In this document: positions 15,046 through 22,684 of the stretch, piece by piece
Layout: the number at the start of each line of letters is the position of its first letter
Numbering within the stretch: the first letter of the stretch is position 1
Assembly: GCA_913061235.1 (NCBI GenBank)
Contig: CAJXTB010000002.1
Location: 62,001-126,000, forward strand
DNA: 64,000 nt
Direction: 5' to 3'
Source: an uncultured Pseudomonadota bacterium
GTDB lineage: Bacteria; Myxococcota_A; UBA796; GCA-2862545
Translations under genes and position numbers: made by a program
The notes under the pieces: generated by a model
Told to the model about the DNA's origin: nothing
What the model saw: only the letters and a program-made list of their open reading frames with translations
The model's database searches: none

Positions 15046-15444
15046 ATGGCTCAAGAGACCACTCAATACTACGGCACCGGTCGTCGCAAGACTTCCACCG
15101 CTCGTGTCTACCTTCGTCCGGGAACCGGCCGTATCATCGTGAACAAGCGCGCTGTTGAAGAGTACTTCATGCGTGAGTCTTTGCGCATGGACCTCGGTCA
15201 GCCGCTCGACATCACTGAGACCCGCGGCGACTTTGACGTTCACGTCAATGTTGCTGGTGGTGGACACACTGGCCAAGCCGGTGCCATCCGCCTCGGAATC
15301 TCACGTGCACTCGTGTTGTTCAATCCCGAGTTCCGCGGTGCCCTCAAGGCTCGTGGCTTCATGACCCGTGACGCCCGTAAGGTCGAGCGGAAGAAGCCAG
15401 GTCAGCCAGGCGCTCGCCGCAAGTTCCAGTTCAGTAAGCGATAG
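15046..15444 (+). CDS. rpsI: 30S ribosomal protein S9
   Basis: S9 contacts the P-site tRNA with its C-terminal tail. The 132-residue protein has the family start [19 protein letters not shown], the block [19 protein letters not shown], and the basic tail ending RKFQFSKR; the invariant KR end is intact. AGCGATAGGGA, which covers its stop codon (15437-15447), is perfectly complementary to the 5' arms of the two terminators downstream. Confidence 0.98.
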
Positions 15445-15456
15445 GGATAGCGGCAC

Positions 15457-15522
15457 AGGCTCTTCGTCGCTTCGTCAGTCGCGGCCGGCAGAGCCTGCTC
15501 CCTCCTAGCTCCTCGCTCCTGT
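15457..15522. repeat. intergenic repeat E with CTCCT heptads
   Basis: An inverted pair AGGCTCT (15457-15463) / AGAGCCT (15490-15496) encloses CTTCGTCGCTTCG and GCGGCCG, words shared with the spacer after tsf. It is followed by three 7-bp units of type CTCCTNN at 15502-15522. The heptad period is the same as in elements A-D, but the core sequence differs. Confidence 0.5.
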
Positions 15523-15571
15523 ACCACTCTCCCTATCGCTACGGCTTTGGGCAGGGTGGTTCTTCTGTTTT
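15523..15571 (+). terminator. terminator T1 after rpsI
   Basis: The arms ACCACTCTCCC and GGGCAGGGTGGT pair imperfectly and are followed by TCTTCTGTTTT. The 18-base word at 15524-15541 recurs in T2. Confidence 0.6.
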
Positions 15572-15593
15572 GGGCTGCTGTTTCTGAATCGAG

Positions 15594-15635
15594 ACCCACT
15601 CTCCCTATCGCTAGGGCGCGTGGGTTTTCTGTTTT
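15594..15635 (+). terminator. terminator T2 after rpsI
   Basis: ACCCAC pairs with GTGGGT and, inside it, CCTA with TAGG; TTTCTGTTTT follows. The 5' arm repeats the 18-base word of T1 exactly (15596-15613). Confidence 0.7.
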
Positions 15636-15657
15636 GGGACGTTGAACGGTGTTGGTG

Positions 15658-15695
15658 ACCCGCTCTCCCTTTCTTTGGGGAAGAGTGGTTTTTTT
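15658..15695 (+). terminator. terminator T3 after rpsI
   Basis: ACCCGCTCTCCC pairs with GGGGAAGAGTGGT around loop TTTCTTT and is followed by seven T. This is the strongest of the three consecutive terminators. Confidence 0.85.
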
Positions 15696-15774
15696 GCGTT
15701 GGGGGTGGAGTCGTTTTGATGAGTGGTGTCAACTGCTTGAGGCGGATGGGTGTCCTACTTGCACAAGGGGGACC

Positions 15775-16092
15775 ATGAAGCGCGACACGCCACTTGCTGA
15801 CCAGGTGCTCATCGACTGGGTTGCCCAGAATTGGACGCCGACGACGAGCGACCCTGATGTTTTTGTGGGTAGGCTCGCCTCGGTGCGTCGTCGTCGGATG
15901 CGACGCAATGACCTGCTTGGGGTCTTGGCAGTTGCGGCGGCGATGTTGGTGTTTGTCAGCAGTACGGCGGCATCAAACACAACGAGTCCCTGGCTGGACT
16001 CGACTTCGTTTGCAGAGGTCTCCAAGCCGGTGCTCTCTGCTGATCTCATCGAGATTCGGCGCTTGTTCTTGCTTGGCGAGCAGGTGCCATGA
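15775..16092 (+). CDS. small single-pass membrane protein, candidate CnrY-like anti-sigma factor
   Basis: The 105-residue product has about 47 cytoplasmic residues rich in Arg just before the membrane (SVRRRRMRRND), one transmembrane helix (LLGVLAVAAAMLVFVSS), and a short periplasmic tail. No known domain is recognised. Topology and position suggest a membrane-bound anti-sigma factor like CnrY: the next gene is a CnrX/CpxP-like sensor, and an ECF sigma gene faces the operon. AGGGGG precedes the ATG at 15775. The stop overlaps the next start by 4 bases (ATGA). The functional assignment is inference only. Confidence 0.7.
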   Translation: MKRDTPLADQVLIDWVAQNWTPTTSDPDVFVGRLASVRRRRMRRNDLLGVLAVAAAMLVFVSSTAASNTTSPWLDSTSFAEVSKPVLSADLIEIRRLFLLGEQVP

Positions 16093-16538
16093 GCCGCTTT
16101 GGAACACTCATTGTCGGGGTGGCATTAGGCCTTCTTGTTGCGACAGCATGGAATCTTGCAGGGCCGAGACCCCCTGGTCAGAGGGCAGCCCCCATCCAAG
16201 ACCTTCTCCAGTACAACCGCGACGAGCTCGGACTGGATGCCCAGACCCTTGAGCAAGCGTGGGCCATTGCGGATGACGCGAAGGCAGATCTCGATGGCTT
16301 CCACCAGCAGATTCGCGAGGAACGGGGCCGGCTAGAAGCGCTGCTGGACCAGACGTCCGTGGACCCCGCCGAGATGTCCGCACATGTGGCTCAAATCGGG
16401 AGGCTGGAGACCCAGCTTCGCACCCGAGAGCTCGACACCATGCTGCTGATTCGGGCGCTTCTGACTTCCGACCAAGTGGACGCGCTTCGAGGCCTGCGTG
16501 CCGGTCCACCCCCAACATCACCCCCTAGACCGCAATGA
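16089..16538 (+). CDS. periplasmic CnrX/CpxP/ZraP-like metal or stress sensor
   Basis: The 149-residue product has an N-terminal membrane anchor (FGTLIVGVALGLLVATAWN) and then a mostly helical, charged periplasmic domain. The domain has LQYNRDELGLDAQTLEQAW and a later QIREERGRLEALLDQ ... LLTSDQVDALRGL, the pattern of the helical-hairpin CnrX/CpxP/ZraP group (heavy-metal resistance / LTxxQ-type). It ends in a Pro-rich tail. Metal ligands of CnrX are not obvious, so the signal sensed is unknown. ATGA overlaps link it to both neighbours. Confidence 0.75.
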   Translation: MSRFGTLIVGVALGLLVATAWNLAGPRPPGQRAAPIQDLLQYNRDELGLDAQTLEQAWAIADDAKADLDGFHQQIREERGRLEALLDQTSVDPAEMSAHVAQIGRLETQLRTRELDTMLLIRALLTSDQVDALRGLRAGPPPTSPPRPQ

Positions 16539-17512
16539 GTTTCCCCATGTACCTGCATCCCACGTTGTTGTTCCTGCTGACTTGCGCCGTCCCATTCGCG
16601 GGCTGCTCTGTTCGCGAGCCAATCACCGTAGAAGTGGCCCCTGTCGATAGGTGTGCTGTTGTGCAGGCGTCCGTGGCAGAGGCGGGTTTCGCTAGTCGGG
16701 TCACCGTTACCTGCACCGAAGACGAGGTCACTCTTTCCTCGGACACCTACCCAGACCACGCTCTGATGACGGGTATCCGAGCGACCAACGAGCAGATTCC
16801 GGTACCTGGCATTTGGTCGCCGTCGTTCCCCCTTCAGCCGCGGGGGACGAGTGGTCGGTCGACGAACGACGCTGCCGTAGGTATCGCTGTGAACGGGGTT
16901 CCGATCTACGACTACACAAAGCAGGGCGACCTAGATGTCGGGAGCTACAACCCCGCGGATGACACCGTTGTTCAGGGCGAACTTGATGTTTGCAATGGTC
17001 ATGCCGGACGCGGCGACGACTACCACTATCATGCGTCGCCGGACTGCATGGTCGCGGTGATGCCGAATGCTGGTGACGATGCCATCCTTGGCTGGGGGCT
17101 CGATGGCTACCCGCTCTATGGCCACAACAACCCGGACGGCACCCCCGTTTCCGAGGGCACGCTGGACGTGTGTAACGGAAAGCCCGACGACACCTTCGGC
17201 TACCGGTACCACACCAGCACGGGGCCGCCGTACATCATCCAGTGCCTTGTGGGAGAGGTAGACCTGGGGGACATCCCTCGGGTTCCGCCGCTCTCGGGAG
17301 ACTCCGGGTCCAAGCCATCAGGTACGCCGCCAGCTGGGGGTGTGCAGAACCTGACGCACACTCACGACGCGGACGGTCGCAGAACTATGCTCTATGAGTA
17401 CCAGGGGCGTGACTACCGAATGTCGTACATTCCAGCGGCAACGCCCGGTTGCTATGTCTTCGACATGGACACCGTATCGATGGGTGTTGTGACCGGGGAG
17501 TACTGCAGATGA
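16535..17512 (+). CDS. YHYH domain lipoprotein
   Basis: The signal sequence has a lipobox at LTCAVPFAGC, so the 325-residue product is probably a lipoprotein. It contains the family hallmark DDYHYHASPDC near residue 150, the related GYRYHTSTGPPY near residue 225, and DGYPLYGHNN between them; the many His, Asp and Cys residues suggest metal binding. The biochemical role of YHYH proteins is not established. It is translationally coupled on both sides through ATGA overlaps, so it is made together with the sensor and the N-terminal-His protein. Confidence 0.88.
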   Translation: MSFPMYLHPTLLFLLTCAVPFAGCSVREPITVEVAPVDRCAVVQASVAEAGFASRVTVTCTEDEVTLSSDTYPDHALMTGIRATNEQIPVPGIWSPSFPLQPRGTSGRSTNDAAVGIAVNGVPIYDYTKQGDLDVGSYNPADDTVVQGELDVCNGHAGRGDDYHYHASPDCMVAVMPNAGDDAILGWGLDGYPLYGHNNPDGTPVSEGTLDVCNGKPDDTFGYRYHTSTGPPYIIQCLVGEVDLGDIPRVPPLSGDSGSKPSGTPPAGGVQNLTHTHDADGRRTMLYEYQGRDYRMSYIPAATPGCYVFDMDTVSMGVVTGEYCR

Positions 17513-18105
17513 GGTCTTGGTTGCTCGCTGTGCTCGGTGCCGCCGTACTGGGAGCAACTGCTGGGGCGCATGAACTCGATGTCGCAAGTGCTCAGGTCAC
17601 CCTGCGGGACGGCCATGTCGCGGTGGTTGCCCATGTAGATGTCCTGCTCCACATGGAGAAGGTTCGCGGTCCGAGCGACGTTCCTTTGGGGCTGTTGGCG
17701 GTCGTTGACCCGGACGCCTTCGTCGCGCTAGCCACCCGCTCAACCCAAGCCCTACAACAAGGCACGGTACTCTTGATCGATGGCGTGCAGGTTATTCCAG
17801 TCGGCTGGCACCTTCCAGACCCGGTACAACTGCAAGCGGACGCACAGCACGCATGGTTGGCCCAGGCGGTCAACGACCCCATCCACGCGACGTTGGCCCC
17901 GGTCTCCTTTGAAGTCCGTCTGGAAGAGCAGCCAGATACGGTCACTCTGGCATTGCCGCGAAGCGTTGGCCCGGTACTGGTGAGCTTCGTGCGGCCCGTC
18001 GGCCAGCTTGCTCCGGCGGGGAGCGCAGTCCGCCTAAACGTGCCTACATGGGCCACTAGCGTAGCTCCAGCATCAGCTCCTCAAGGTCTCGACGAAGCGC
18101 TTTGA
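17509..18105 (+). CDS. exported protein with predicted N-terminal histidine, HupE N-domain-like
   Basis: The start ATG 17509 overlaps the YHYH gene stop (ATGA). The signal peptide MRSWLLAVLGAAVLGATAGA would be cut before HELDVASAQVTL, leaving His as residue 1 of the mature 178-residue protein. The soluble part is beta-rich and loosely resembles the N-terminal exported domain of HupE/UreJ-type proteins; no transmembrane segment follows, so the membrane half is missing or was never present. A free N-terminal His can bind copper in CopC-like and LPMO-like proteins, but that role is speculative here. Its last 50 bases overlap the 3' end of the sigma factor gene on the other strand. Confidence 0.72.
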   Translation: MRSWLLAVLGAAVLGATAGAHELDVASAQVTLRDGHVAVVAHVDVLLHMEKVRGPSDVPLGLLAVVDPDAFVALATRSTQALQQGTVLLIDGVQVIPVGWHLPDPVQLQADAQHAWLAQAVNDPIHATLAPVSFEVRLEEQPDTVTLALPRSVGPVLVSFVRPVGQLAPAGSAVRLNVPTWATSVAPASAPQGLDEAL

Positions 18106-18577
18106 GGGCTCGGTGGAGGTGGGTGCGAACGGTACCTGGGGCTTTGCCCAACAGTTCCGCACTCTGGTCAAGGGTGAAGCCTTCCAAGTACACAAGGACG
18201 AACACCTCACGCTGACCTTGTGACAGACCGGACATTGCCTGCTCTATGCGTTCACGGACCGCGGGTTCTCCGGGTGTCGGCGGCGACGAGACCTCTTGGA
18301 CAAAGAGGCGTGCGAACCGGTCGCGTACGCCTCGCCATCGTCGGTAGTTCGCGGCCCGGCGCGTGAGGATTCGGAAGAACCATGCGCGAAGGGCTTCGGG
18401 ATTGTCCAGTGTCTCAAGCTTCTTGTACGCTACGAGGAACGCCTCCTGCGCTACCTCTTCAGCGGTGGCTCTGTCTGCTCCGGTGAGCCGCCACGCCATG
18501 CGAACTGCTTGTTCATGATGCGCGTGTACGAAAGCTCTGAACCGCTCAGATGGGTCTTGAGCTCGCACAGTACTCAC
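18056..18577 (-). CDS. ECF-type RNA polymerase sigma factor
   Basis: The 173-residue protein has region 2 (HEQAVRMAWRLTGADRATAEEVAQEAFLVAYKKL) and region 4 with LSQGQREVFVLVYLEGFTLDQSAELLGKAPGTVRTHLHRALKAL, and lacks regions 1.1 and 3. The start is GTG 18577, 37 bases after the lipoprotein stop on the same strand, with no clear Shine-Dalgarno sequence, so the two are probably co-transcribed. No anti-sigma gene follows it on its strand; the only candidate is the small membrane protein of the convergent operon. Its 3' end overlaps that operon's last gene by 50 bases. Confidence 0.93.
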   Translation of the reverse strand: MSTVRAQDPSERFRAFVHAHHEQAVRMAWRLTGADRATAEEVAQEAFLVAYKKLETLDNPEALRAWFFRILTRRAANYRRWRGVRDRFARLFVQEVSSPPTPGEPAVRERIEQAMSGLSQGQREVFVLVYLEGFTLDQSAELLGKAPGTVRTHLHRALKALRRDLEELMLELR

Positions 18578-18614
18578 AGGTCAACACAGTCCAACAATGC
18601 GAAGCTGAGCGGTG

Positions 18615-19262
18615 TCACGGCATGGTGACGCGGCACAGCAACGTATTGTCCGACTCAAGGTCGTCGCCCCAGATGAAGGCAGCCTGGCTGTCCCATTGGA
18701 TGTCGTCGTAGCCGTCTTTTGGACGTACCGCTTCAGCGCTGTGTTGGGTGCCGAAATCCCAACTGCTGTCATCGAACTCGGGGTTCTTCCAGCCATCCGG
18801 CTCAGGGATGGCCATGAACCGGCAGTCTGCGTCCGGATTGCTAGAGGACGCACAGTCCTTGTTGAGGGGGGCCTCATGGATAGTCAGGCACTTCCAGTCG
18901 CTGTTCGTGACCAAGACGGTCTCATTGCTCGACTGGTCAATGATCTGCGCGATGAACCCGCCATCACCCATCTGTTGATTGCTCTGTCCGATGTACTCGA
19001 GCCCAGAGTCGGTTTCTTTGAAGTCTTTGAGGATGAAGCTCAGCGTGGCCCCTGGCTCAGCATCAAAGCTGAAGCTCTCTGCATTGAAGCTGCGCTCGGT
19101 AGTGATGGAGACCGAGTCTTCGATGACGAGCTGGTCGCCGATGTACATGGCGAACCAGTTGTCCGCCCACGCGTCGGCCCGGTATTGTTGGGTCGAAGAG
19201 ACGTTGTCCGACACGACAGCCGGCGACGGACCTCCACAAGCAACGAGTAGTAGGAACAGCAT
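18615..19262 (-). CDS. lipoprotein with jelly-roll-like domain
   Basis: The start ATG 19262 has GGAGA five bases upstream on the minus strand and gives MLFLLLVACGGPS, a lipobox with Cys10. Longer starts bury this signal. The 215-residue product contains YRADAWADNWFAMYIGDQLV, then WKNPEFDDSSWDFG, and ends AAFIWGDDLESDNTLLCR, a pattern seen in galactose-binding-like jelly rolls. No function is assigned. It precedes the ECF sigma gene by 37 bases, so it is probably its operon partner and may be a target or a sensor. Confidence 0.8.
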   Translation of the reverse strand: MLFLLLVACGGPSPAVVSDNVSSTQQYRADAWADNWFAMYIGDQLVIEDSVSITTERSFNAESFSFDAEPGATLSFILKDFKETDSGLEYIGQSNQQMGDGGFIAQIIDQSSNETVLVTNSDWKCLTIHEAPLNKDCASSSNPDADCRFMAIPEPDGWKNPEFDDSSWDFGTQHSAEAVRPKDGYDDIQWDSQAAFIWGDDLESDNTLLCRVTMP

Positions 19263-19431
19263 GGTTGTCTCCAAACGAGCTGTGTAGCGCTCGGTTCGCA
19301 ACAAAGACACCGGACGTGCCGTCATGGTTTACATCGGTCGGTCGGTCGACGCTGGTGCTTCTACTGCCGGCATGGAGTAGAGCCCGGACGAACGAACTCG
19401 CCGTCAGCGCTATGAACTCGTAGTGGAGCCG

Positions 19432-19575
19432 CTACGGGGCCGGTGTCGTCACCAAGAAGATTGTCGTGCCACGGTTGACCGATGTCTCGTTGATGAGTGT
19501 GACGTAACCGTCGCCGCCAGTACCTCCGCCTGGGCTGGACCCGGAGTGCAACCACCGAGCCCAAATACCCAGCCG
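19432..19575 (-). pseudogene. decayed duplicate of the 3' end of the cysteine-repeat gene
   Basis: Directly behind the stop of the large cysteine-repeat gene, but shifted by one base, the minus strand reads GGTGGDGYVTLINETSVNRG and then TTIFLVTTPAP before a TAG. The main gene ends GGDGSDGYITLISDTLNNRG and then TNDGVVTTPDP. The two tails are clearly related, so this is a leftover tandem duplicate without its own start. The remaining spacer to 19262 carries the lipoprotein's leader and nothing else recognised. Confidence 0.7.
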
Positions 19576-19576
19576 G

Positions 19577-22500
19577 CTAGGGGTCGGGGGTCGTCACCAC
19601 ACCGTCGTTGGTTCCGCGGTTGTTTAGGGTGTCGCTGATCAGCGTGATGTAGCCATCGCTGCCGTCGCCACCATCGCCACTCGCTCCTGTTCGTCCACCG
19701 GCGCCACCTGAGCCGCCACCATCGCGACCAGGGCCGCCAATCGCGCCGGATGAGCCCGACACACCGCTTCCGCCAGCGCCGCCGCCGGCATCGAGGTCTG
19801 CGCTGTTGGTCATGGTCAGGGCAGGGGCAATCAAGACGATGTGTCCACCTGCACCGCCGCCGCCACCCGAGCCGTGACCGCTACGGCCTGCGCCGCCACC
19901 GCCTCCGCTACCGGTGTTCCGAGAGCAGTAGTTGGACTGTCCGTTTTCTGGGAATCCAGAGAAGGCTCCGCCTCCGCCATAGCCACCCGCAGCGTCGATA
20001 GACCCCGTGATGGTCATGGTGCTCGCGGCACACAACAAAACAGCACCGCCGCCGCCGCCACCACCGCCACCTGCGCCTGAGTTGCCGAGGATGCCGCCGT
20101 AGTTGGTGCATGCGCCATCTCCCCAACCGCCTGTTCCGTGGTAGCCGCCATAGGCGCCACCTGCGCCGCCGCTTCCGCCTACAAGGAAGGTGGCCTCGCC
20201 ATTACCGTAGGAACTTCCGCCGAACGAAGATGGAGGCCCGCTCGAGCAGGCCGAGCCAGAGCTTCCGCCAGAAGACCCAGAACCAGATGTTCCGGCTGTG
20301 CCTGCACCGCCCGGCTCGCTGTTGCCGCCTAGCAGTGCATATCCGCCACCTGAACCACCACTGGCGCCGCAGCCACCGCCGCCGCCGCCGCCGCCGCCGG
20401 TTCCGGAAGCGTTGCCGCCTCGTCCACCTTGGCCGCCGCAGCCTGAGGTCTGACCTGCGCCGGGGCCGTCGGCCCTTCCGTTGTTGCCACAGCCCACGCC
20501 AGAGCGGAACTCGCCACCATCAAATCCACCTGAACCTGACACTCCCCGTGTGCCGGCGGAGGACTGGCCGCTACCGTATCCACCGCTGGAGCCCGAGATG
20601 TCGAGGTCAGCTCCCATTGTGACGATACCGTTCGAGACGATTGCTGCTGCGCGGTCGCCAACGATGTTGACCGAGCCAGACAGCGACACATCGCCAAAGT
20701 TCCACACGGCAATCTGTGGGGCAGGCAGGCCATTGATGCTGGACTGGGACTGCAGAGCGAAGCCGCTGGCACCCGCTGAAATCCGGGTGATGCCATTAAG
20801 CGTGACGGCACCCGAGTCGGTGTTGAAGACAATCGTTCCGTTCAGGGCAATATCGCCGAGAGCACCTGTACTGTCATCGATCGGGCCACAGCCGATGGAC
20901 GTGACCGGAAGCTCACACTCAGCAGTACAGTTCACACCGTCATTAAAGCCGTCGTCGCACTCCTCGTTGCCGTTGACCGCGCCGTCTCCACAGAAGGGGC
21001 CTTCCGCTTGGCAGTCGGCAGTGCAGTTGTCGTACGACCCGTTGCTGCTGCCATCATCACAGAGCTCTTCGGCGGACTGCACAATGCCGTCACCGCAGAA
21101 GGGTGCATCACCGGCACAGTTGTCAGCACAGTTGCCGTAAGAACCGTTGTTTGCACCATCGTCGCAGGTCTCGGAGCCGTTGGTGGCGCCGTCACCGCAG
21201 AAGGGGCCGTCCGCTTGGCAATCGGAGGCACAGCCGTCGTAGGAGTTGTCGTTGGTACCGTCGTCACAGACCTCGCTTCCGGAATCGACAATGCCGTCGC
21301 CACAGAATCCAGCGGGACCTTGGCAGTCGCTCGCGCAGTTGCCAATGACGCCGTTGTTGACTCCGTCATCGCAGGCCTCAAAGGCCGCCTGAACAATGCC
21401 GTCACCGCAGCCCACAACCGGCTCGCCACAGGATGCGGTGCAGCTGTTGTAGGACCCGTCGTTGGTGCCGTCGTCGCACTCTTCTTCGCCGGGCTGTTGC
21501 ACGCCATCCCCACAGTAGGGGCCTGGCGAACAGGTAGATGTGCAGCCATCATAGGAGCCATCGTTGGTACCGTCGTCGCAGAGCTCTTGTGGGGCTTGGA
21601 CTTGGCCGTCTCCGCAGCTCGGCCCTGGCGTGCAGTCGGACGCACAACCGCCGTAGCTGCCTGCATTGATGCCATCGTCGCAGTCTTCAAATGCTGCCTG
21701 ACGGATGCCGTCTCCGCAGGTTGGGGCCAGGGAACAGTCAGCATTGCAGCCATCGTAGGTGCCGTCATTGGCGCCGTCGTCGCACTCTTCCTGTGCGGAC
21801 TAGGTCACGCCATCGCCGCACCGTGCGGCCAGGGTACAGCTCGATGTACACCCGCCATACAAGCCGGCATTGACGCCATCGTCGCAGTCTTCAAACGCCG
21901 CCTGGCGGGTTCCGTCGCCGCAGGTTGGGGCGAAGTCACTGCAGTCAGAGAGACACCCGTCGTACGAGCCGTCGTTGACGCCGTCGTCGCACAGCTCGGG
22001 GGCTACAACACGACCGTCTCCACAGCCAGATTCGATCTCGATGATCACGCTAGCAATGCACCGTTCGCCCTCGGGATCGAACACAACAAGGGTGATCTCG
22101 TGCTCACCGGAACTTAGGCCGCTGGCAGAGTAGGCGACACGTCCGCTCGGGCTTGGTGTGACGTCTCCAAGGTCGCCGTCGAGGTCACTTGTGAAGGTGG
22201 CGTCGAGTTGTTCCGGCAGGGACTGGTCGTCGCTGACGGCACCGACCAAGGCCACCGACTGGTTCGGACCGTACAATGTCCCGGCTTCTGGGCTGGTGAA
22301 GCTGCAGAATGGGGGCGTGTTCGGGACGGGTTCCGGGATGGGAATGACGGTGATGGTGTCGCTGCCGTTCGCTACGCCGTCCGAGAACTCTAGGGTGACG
22401 CGGTCGTCTGTGGGGCTAAGGGTCATGATGCACTCGGTGACGCCCTGGGTATCGACGTCGATACACTCGACGACGGGTACATCTCCAAGGAACCAGCGAA

Positions 22501-22684
22501 CCTCGAGTCCTTCGGGATCTTGGTCTGCGTCTCCTACAAGGCCGCGGAACAACGTGGGGACGTCTTGGTAGATCTCTTCACCGTCAGAGTGACTGGTGAT
22601 CTCGGCATCCGGAGCCGTGTTTCGCACACCAATGGTGCGGTCGGAGCAGGCGGAGAGCAAGACGAGCAGGGGAAGCCAGCGCAT
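19577..22684 (-). pseudogene. DUF4215 cysteine-repeat / Gly-rich lipoprotein gene interrupted by an in-frame TAG
   Basis: One frame runs from the lipoprotein start at 22684 to 19577 (1035 sense codons if read through), broken only by TAG at 21800-21802. Order: lipobox LLSACS, two Ig/PKD-like domains, eleven cysteine-rich repeats (CGDGxxxxxExCDDGxNxGxYxxC), then a beta-helix-like stretch (ITRISAGASGFAL...) with long Gly/Ser-rich loops, ending DGYITLISDTLNNRG. The TAG falls inside repeat 3 where related repeats have CAG (CGDGVQQ, CGDGIRQ), so a single C-to-T change explains it. The downstream part has only a GTG at 21502 as a possible start and no signal peptide, so it would not be exported alone. 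A sequencing error or stop read-through are alternatives. Confidence 0.85.
21800..22684 (-). CDS. N-terminal readable part of the interrupted cysteine-repeat lipoprotein
   Basis: This is what would be translated if the TAG at 21800-21802 is a real stop: 294 residues with the signal MRWLPLLVLLSAC, an Ig-like domain pair (TAPDAEITSHSDGEEIYQDV; PPFCSFTSPEAGTLYGPN) and two and a half DUF4215 repeats ending CGDGVT. The N-terminal domain resembles that of the lipoprotein encoded at 57091-60567 (GxRNxxPxAxI ... FRGxVxDxD), so the two genes are paralogous in their first part. Confidence 0.75.
   Translation of the reverse strand: MRWLPLLVLLSACSDRTIGVRNTAPDAEITSHSDGEEIYQDVPTLFRGLVGDADQDPEGLEVRWFLGDVPVVECIDVDTQGVTECIMTLSPTDDRVTLEFSDGVANGSDTITVIPIPEPVPNTPPFCSFTSPEAGTLYGPNQSVALVGAVSDDQSLPEQLDATFTSDLDGDLGDVTPSPSGRVAYSASGLSSGEHEITLVVFDPEGERCIASVIIEIESGCGDGRVVAPELCDDGVNDGSYDGCLSDCSDFAPTCGDGTRQAAFEDCDDGVNAGLYGGCTSSCTLAARCGDGVT

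Follow-up and report, generated by a model that had tools for sequence, protein, structure and literature searches.

The locus and its six genes

We analysed a cassette of six genes at positions 15775-19262 of a 64,000-nucleotide stretch of contig CAJXTB010000002.1 (assembly GCA_913061235.1, an uncultured bacterium of the GTDB lineage Myxococcota_A), hereafter the window. According to the open reading frame (ORF) calls, four plus-strand genes, encoding a small membrane protein, an envelope sensor, a YHYH protein and an exported protein of 198 residues, converge with two minus-strand genes, encoding a lipoprotein and an extracytoplasmic function (ECF) sigma factor (Table 1). ATGA overlaps join the plus-strand genes at all three junctions. 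On the minus strand, 37 bases separate the end of the lipoprotein gene from the start of the sigma gene, and the latter overlaps the gene of the 198-residue protein tail to tail by 50 bases at the 3' ends. All reading frames of the cassette are open, and the start/stop overlaps are kept.

Table 1. Genes and predicted promoters of the cassette (window coordinates; aa, amino acids)
Feature	Coordinates	Strand	Remarks
Predicted ECF-type promoter, anti-sigma/sensor/YHYH/198-aa operon	15727..15754	+	TGTCAAC-N16-GTGTC, 20 bases before ATG
Anti-sigma factor of 105 aa with a single transmembrane segment and a basic face towards the cytoplasm	15775..16092	+	Family profiles built without it
CnrX/CpxP/Spy-like envelope sensor, 149 aa	16089..16538	+	PF13801; 48% identity to Enhygromyxa sensor
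YHYH lipoprotein, 325 aa	16535..17512	+	PF14240; 54% identity to Enhygromyxa copy
Exported 198-aa protein, predicted mature N-terminal His, Ang-1-like fold	17509..18105	+	Alignment and model
ECF sigma factor, 173 aa, GTG start	18056..18577	-	PF08281, PF04542; 69% identity to Enhygromyxa sigma factor
Lipoprotein, 215 aa, first gene of sigma operon	18615..19262	-	Large family, often beside or fused with YHYH
Predicted ECF-type promoter, lipoprotein/sigma operon	19306..19333	-	TGTAAAC-N16-GTGTC, 43 bases before ATG

The sensor is assigned to the Metal_resist family (PF13801; E 2.3e-14, 54.1 bits against a cut-off of 29.2) and the YHYH protein to PF14240 (E 2.2e-17, 64.1 bits against 25). Neither matched a solved structure when used as a lone query (P0002 and P0003), and three of the cassette proteins had no match in PHROGs. 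Elsewhere in the same genome, L067 (G000:C53:4405-5478) encodes in tandem two Metal_resist proteins that are Spy-like and have Gly/Arg-rich tails; no sigma factor similar to that of the window was found beside them.

A conserved trio, rearranged

The sigma factor consists of regions 2 and 4 only (Sigma70_r2 and Sigma70_r4) and matches TIGR02937 above its cut-off. Its orthologues (E ≤ 1e-28) occur in at least 40 of the 329 sampled genomes of the phylum, the window's own included; with no more than 10 candidates scored per genome, these counts are lower bounds. There were 42 non-self matches, and we examined the loci of 41, leaving out a partial one (G079:C64). At 38 of these, the next gene on the same strand after the sigma gene encodes a small one-pass protein; nine of the 41 loci had seeded the anti-sigma profile, which leaves 32 others, with 29 independent finds. 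At 39 of the 41 loci a gene for a sensor of the window sensor's family follows downstream, and the canonical order is thus sigma, anti-sigma and sensor on one strand.

Members of the anti-sigma family share a motif around Y-x-P-x-P near the N-terminus, a membrane-spanning segment and, towards the C-terminus, the motif LPDDYxAIASLxL. A profile of the family, built without the window protein, placed the 105-residue protein ahead of every other window ORF of 40 residues or more (E 9.4e-5; next 0.083), and a second profile, from 26 loci, ranked it first in its own 7.2-Mb genome (E 8.1e-4; next 0.22). Residues 47-65 are the protein's only hydrophobic stretch (mean hydropathy 2.26); six Lys/Arg immediately precede it, and the 12 residues that follow contain none. 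As a lone query (P0001) it found no clear homologue, with matches in 19 of 93 genomes at E ≤ 0.1, the best foreign one (E 0.0012) pointing to a canonical trio in G031, a genome of the window's own order. We found no sequence link of the family to CnrY itself. Judged by its sequence, the 105-residue protein is the anti-sigma factor of a recognisable myxococcal family.

The window is a rearrangement of this trio: no ORF beside the sigma gene on its own strand matches the anti-sigma profile. In a tree of 43 sigma factors, that of the window pairs with that of Enhygromyxa salina SWB005 (support 100/99, 69% identity), and the sister of this pair is the sigma factor of G031, whose genes are in canonical order (support 98/87). 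E. salina, which shares only the phylum (Myxococcota) with the window, carries counterparts of all six cassette genes together in a third arrangement: anti-sigma, sensor and sigma genes on one strand, the first two joined by a GTGA overlap, and divergent from them the lipoprotein, YHYH and 198-residue protein genes. Identities to the window proteins are 48% for the sensor, 54% for the YHYH protein, 56% for the lipoprotein, 30% for the 198-residue protein and 32% for the anti-sigma factor, the last with a pairwise E of only 0.031. A relative of Enhygromyxa (L239, G358:C655) has a sensor gene with a stop and a sigma gene without its N-terminus, a decayed remnant of a sensor-sigma pair that is adjacent as in the Enhygromyxa order.

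A preliminary description of this DNA, made from the sequence alone, had set out the same six-gene structure, with its ORFs, three ATGA overlaps, one-pass protein, sensor, YHYH protein and facing sigma and lipoprotein genes. It had also taken the small protein for an anti-sigma factor and the sigma factor for one without an anti-sigma on its strand, and had read the whole as a rearranged trio. The profile rankings, the ORFs beside the sigma gene and the canonical loci bear out these proposals. The co-occurrence of YHYH, CnrX-like and ECF genes, which it had suggested seeking in other genomes, is found in Enhygromyxa.

Predicted promoters before both operons

No sigma-70 type promoter was found within 15400-19700. 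By eye, TGTCAAC-N16-GTGTC precedes the anti-sigma gene in both the window and Enhygromyxa, and a motif scan of 41 sigma upstream regions gave a related consensus. We fitted a two-block model (YGTAAACCG-N13-GGTGTC) iteratively on the upstream regions of the 41 orthologous sigma loci, with no window sequence in it. It has sites in 37 of the 41 regions; at 10 bits or more it finds 36 of them, against none of the 41 when the same regions are reversed. Across both strands of the whole window, the best site (23.2 bits) lies before the lipoprotein gene and the second best (16.5 bits) before the anti-sigma gene, the best unrelated site reaching 13.7 bits. The two best sites precede the facing operons, and both operons are therefore predicted targets of the sigma factor, its own gene included; the sigma factor probably controls both. 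Enhygromyxa has both elements back to back, one before the anti-sigma gene and a related one before the lipoprotein gene.

A third window site (21952, minus strand) matched a loose form of the pattern, scored only 10.7 bits with the model and was set aside. Scanning the window's own genome with the promoter pattern gave seven sites, against four for the pattern read backwards, and we therefore confine the predicted regulon to the two window sites.

A module found in other phyla

The lipoprotein family has 403 relatives in genome_contigs, and its profile matches a rhamnosidase domain (3w5m, E 2.1e-4). Near the best 80 of the 403 relatives there is a YHYH gene in 26 cases, a PEBP gene in 14 and, by BLAST, a homologue of the 198-residue protein in 7. 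An iterated profile run over the ORFs of those 80 and seven further loci raised the loci with such a homologue to 17. Lipoprotein and YHYH genes also stand side by side on Rhodobacterales plasmids and in G028. At nine loci of Gammaproteobacteria a single ORF of 705-782 residues spans PEBP and YHYH matches, with the lipoprotein domain at its C-terminus; Pfam, which was run on one of these nine (L206), confirms PBP and YHYH there, as it does for a further two fusions, L215 and L219. Because of such fusions, relatives of the lipoprotein, as in plasmid records, bear the misleading label 'PEBP family protein'. The window lipoprotein has no PF01161 (PEBP) match, the PEBP domain belonging to the fused neighbour, and of the three PEBP genes in the window's own genome none lies in the window's contig (C2). 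Other fusion orders exist: L208 has the lipoprotein domain before YHYH, L215 is PKD-PEBP-YHYH-lipoprotein and L219 is lipoprotein-PEBP-YHYH.

Twelve of the 17 loci with a 198-residue homologue also have a histidine kinase and a response regulator resembling those of L206, and at 11 of the 12 this pair lies in the module or no more than about 600 bases from it. Among named families, BaeS and BaeR come closest to the pair, with scores under the curated cut-offs. At L196, a myxobacterial metagenome-assembled genome (MAG), the BaeSR-like pair stands between the YHYH, 198-residue protein and PEBP genes and the lipoprotein gene. Six lipoprotein-family loci in Chloroflexota-type MAGs (L160, L176, L177, L187, L198 and L212) have a response regulator similar to the BaeR-like one (E < 1e-30).

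By homology and gene neighbourhood, the lipoprotein, the YHYH protein and the 198-residue protein are a conserved module found in other phyla. The lipoprotein belongs to the same module as the YHYH protein and is not incidental.

The model of the YHYH protein (predicted local distance difference test score, pLDDT, 80.6) gave no convincing fold match in the PDB (best E 0.24), and its fold may still be a known one; L185, which has an in-frame stop, was left out of the family alignment. Functional statements on the YHYH family that we found in the open-access literature are limited to predictions and domain associations from phage proteins: a survey of jumbo phages predicts that YHYH domains hold a zinc site (PMC7824862), and a paper on pelagiphages associates them with the binding of carbohydrates (PMC7029224).

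In the alignment of the 198-residue protein, from which L214 and L219 were left out because their called ORF is in another frame, His21 is invariant (16 of 16 rows) and follows an AxA-like signal peptide end, the cleavage site being judged by eye; His126 is kept in 15 of the 16. The AlphaFold2 model (pLDDT 86.3) is an Ig-like beta sandwich in which three helices are inserted between strands 2 and 3. Its best PDB match is the copper-bound Ang-1 domain 9gce (Foldseek E 8.3e-8; VIA Z 11.3 over 146 aligned residues, root-mean-square deviation 4.4), followed by the zinc-binding proteins ZrgA and PA4063 (Z 8-9). According to its source paper, Ang-1 likewise has these three helices; it carries a mono-histidine brace and binds copper and nickel with nanomolar affinity (PMC12537917).

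A proposed circuit and its alternatives

We propose that the cassette forms a complete ECF sigma circuit of the CnrYXH type that regulates itself and whose genes have been rearranged around the module it targets, a module that most likely handles a transition metal in the envelope; we give this reading a probability of roughly 0.7. From the gene order, the protein families, their conservation and the promoter sites, we infer how the parts would work. At rest, the CnrY-like anti-sigma factor would hold the sigma factor at the inner membrane. The CnrX/Spy-like protein would sense a signal in the envelope and, by analogy with CnrYXH, loosen the anti-sigma factor and free the sigma factor. This would then transcribe both operons, giving positive autoregulation, a matched negative feedback and production of the exported module. 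The 198-residue protein may, like Ang-1, use its N-terminal His to chelate a transition metal such as copper or nickel. The lipoprotein, in part like a rhamnosidase domain, and the YHYH protein, with its predicted metal site, may act at the cell surface. Such a surface role with metal chelation would fit the zinc-site prediction, the carbohydrate-binding link and the rhamnosidase match.

Several observations weigh against this reading. The seed of the promoter model was not fully blind, as it was picked after the motif had been spotted by comparing the window with Enhygromyxa. The sequence profile of the 198-residue protein finds no relative in the PDB and no link to the Ang-1 sequence, so that the tie to Ang-1 is one of fold. 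Near the 41 canonical trios, with flanks checked up to about 8 kb and less at contig ends, there is no homologue of the YHYH protein, the lipoprotein or the 198-residue protein, and their other neighbours, judged from clusters of unannotated ORFs, include no recurrent metal-handling gene. Among 377 genomes of the phylum, the lipoprotein occurs at 14 places in 12 positive genomes (the window's own included), and the trio is present at only two of these, the window and Enhygromyxa, the only loci from which linked trio and module are known. Finally, at the three positions where the myxococcal sensor family most often has histidine (in 19, 13 and 18 of 39 rows), the window sensor has N43, R111 and R113; that of Enhygromyxa keeps one of the three histidines.

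This last point, together with the profile of the sensor family, which fits Spy (E 2.6e-5), ZraP (1.1e-4) and CpxP (0.0035) better than CnrX (0.034), would suit the same circuit with another signal, envelope damage or misfolded protein, and a module that repairs or remodels the surface, the YHYH protein as a hydrolase and the lipoprotein as a glycan binder. The BaeSR-like systems, of an envelope-stress type, at 12 of the 17 loci with a 198-residue homologue and the rhamnosidase match of the lipoprotein point the same way. The invariant N-terminal His of the 198-residue protein and its fold, for which copper-bound Ang-1 and the zinc-binding proteins ZrgA and PA4063 are the closest matches, argue for metal instead, and we consider damage sensing rather unlikely, if worth serious weight. 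That the sigma gene is adjacent by chance to an anti-sigma/sensor pair that serves another sigma factor or is decaying, as its strand, unlike that at the 41 canonical loci, and the remnant in the relative of Enhygromyxa might suggest, is very improbable given the open frames, the kept overlaps, the matching promoters on both operons and the same trio intact in Enhygromyxa.

The preliminary description is thus supported in part. Its suggestion of copper or another metal as the signal finds no backing in a sensor whose commonest family histidines are replaced and whose family is closer to Spy, ZraP and CpxP than to CnrX. The two added exported proteins that it called His-rich do have a conserved N-terminal His and a YHYH motif, and neither is strikingly His-rich overall (7 His in the 198-residue protein). 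It had missed the promoter type of the sigma factor on both facing operons and the place of the lipoprotein in the module.

Comparison with described systems

In the parts of the literature on Cupriavidus metallidurans that we draw on, CnrYXH comprises a membrane anti-sigma factor, a periplasmic sensor of the Metal_resist family and an ECF sigma factor that transcribes its own regulatory locus and its targets (PMC4803752, PMC7689651); part of a further paper informs the signalling analogy (PMC4598750). The circuit proposed here shares with it a short one-pass anti-sigma factor with a basic cytoplasmic N-terminus, encoded with a Metal_resist sensor, an ECF sigma factor and, in silico, a sigma promoter before both the regulatory genes and the targets. 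It differs in that the sigma gene lies on the opposite strand, in an operon with the lipoprotein gene, whereas Enhygromyxa has the Y-X-H order on one strand as CnrYXH does. Its predicted targets are YHYH, Ang-1-like and lipoprotein genes instead of a resistance-nodulation-division (RND) efflux pump, and its sensor family matches CnrX weakly. With the canonical trios of Myxococcota it has in common the orthologous sigma factor, the anti-sigma and sensor families and the promoter type, but those trios lie on one strand, and no homologue of the module was found near them.

The 198-residue protein resembles the Ang-1 anglerase (9gce) in its mature N-terminal His, here predicted, and in the beta sandwich with its three helices. 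Unlike Ang-1, it is a stand-alone protein with no detected sequence match to it and no C-terminal HupE/UreJ-2 permease domain (no Pfam match up to E 1). The loci of Gammaproteobacteria contain the same YHYH, lipoprotein and 198-residue families, but there YHYH and the lipoprotein domain are fused with PEBP in one polypeptide and a BaeSR-like two-component system is present, whereas the window has an ECF circuit and no adjoining PEBP gene.

The odds seem to us about even that these loci represent an undescribed envelope metal-handling module, made of YHYH, a rhamnosidase-domain-like lipoprotein, an Ang-1-like protein with an N-terminal His and often PEBP, that moves between bacteria and comes under the control of any envelope sensor available, a BaeSR-like system in the case of Gammaproteobacteria and a rearranged CnrYXH-like sigma circuit in that of Myxococcota. 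In the open-access literature we found no study of the YHYH/lipoprotein/198-residue module and none of this locus as a CnrX/CnrYXH-like circuit. The YHYH family would be placed in a genetic context, with fixed partners and an inducer that can be tested; an ECF sigma circuit would be seen to keep its wiring through gene shuffling, and one effector module to be attached to two unrelated sensor types. The system can be put to the test because a named myxobacterium, Enhygromyxa salina, carries it.

Surroundings of the cassette

The two genes before the cassette encode what we take to be ribosomal proteins L13 and S9. At 15524-15703, between them and the cassette, a two-part repeat (CCACTCTCCCTATCGCTA... 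and GTGGTTTTTCTGTTTTGGG) occurs three times at intervals of 64-72 bases; the copies are possibly serial terminators. Directly beyond the cassette, the minus strand at 19577-22684 encodes large exported proteins in which CGDG...CDDG motifs recur and which also have glycine-rich tracts.

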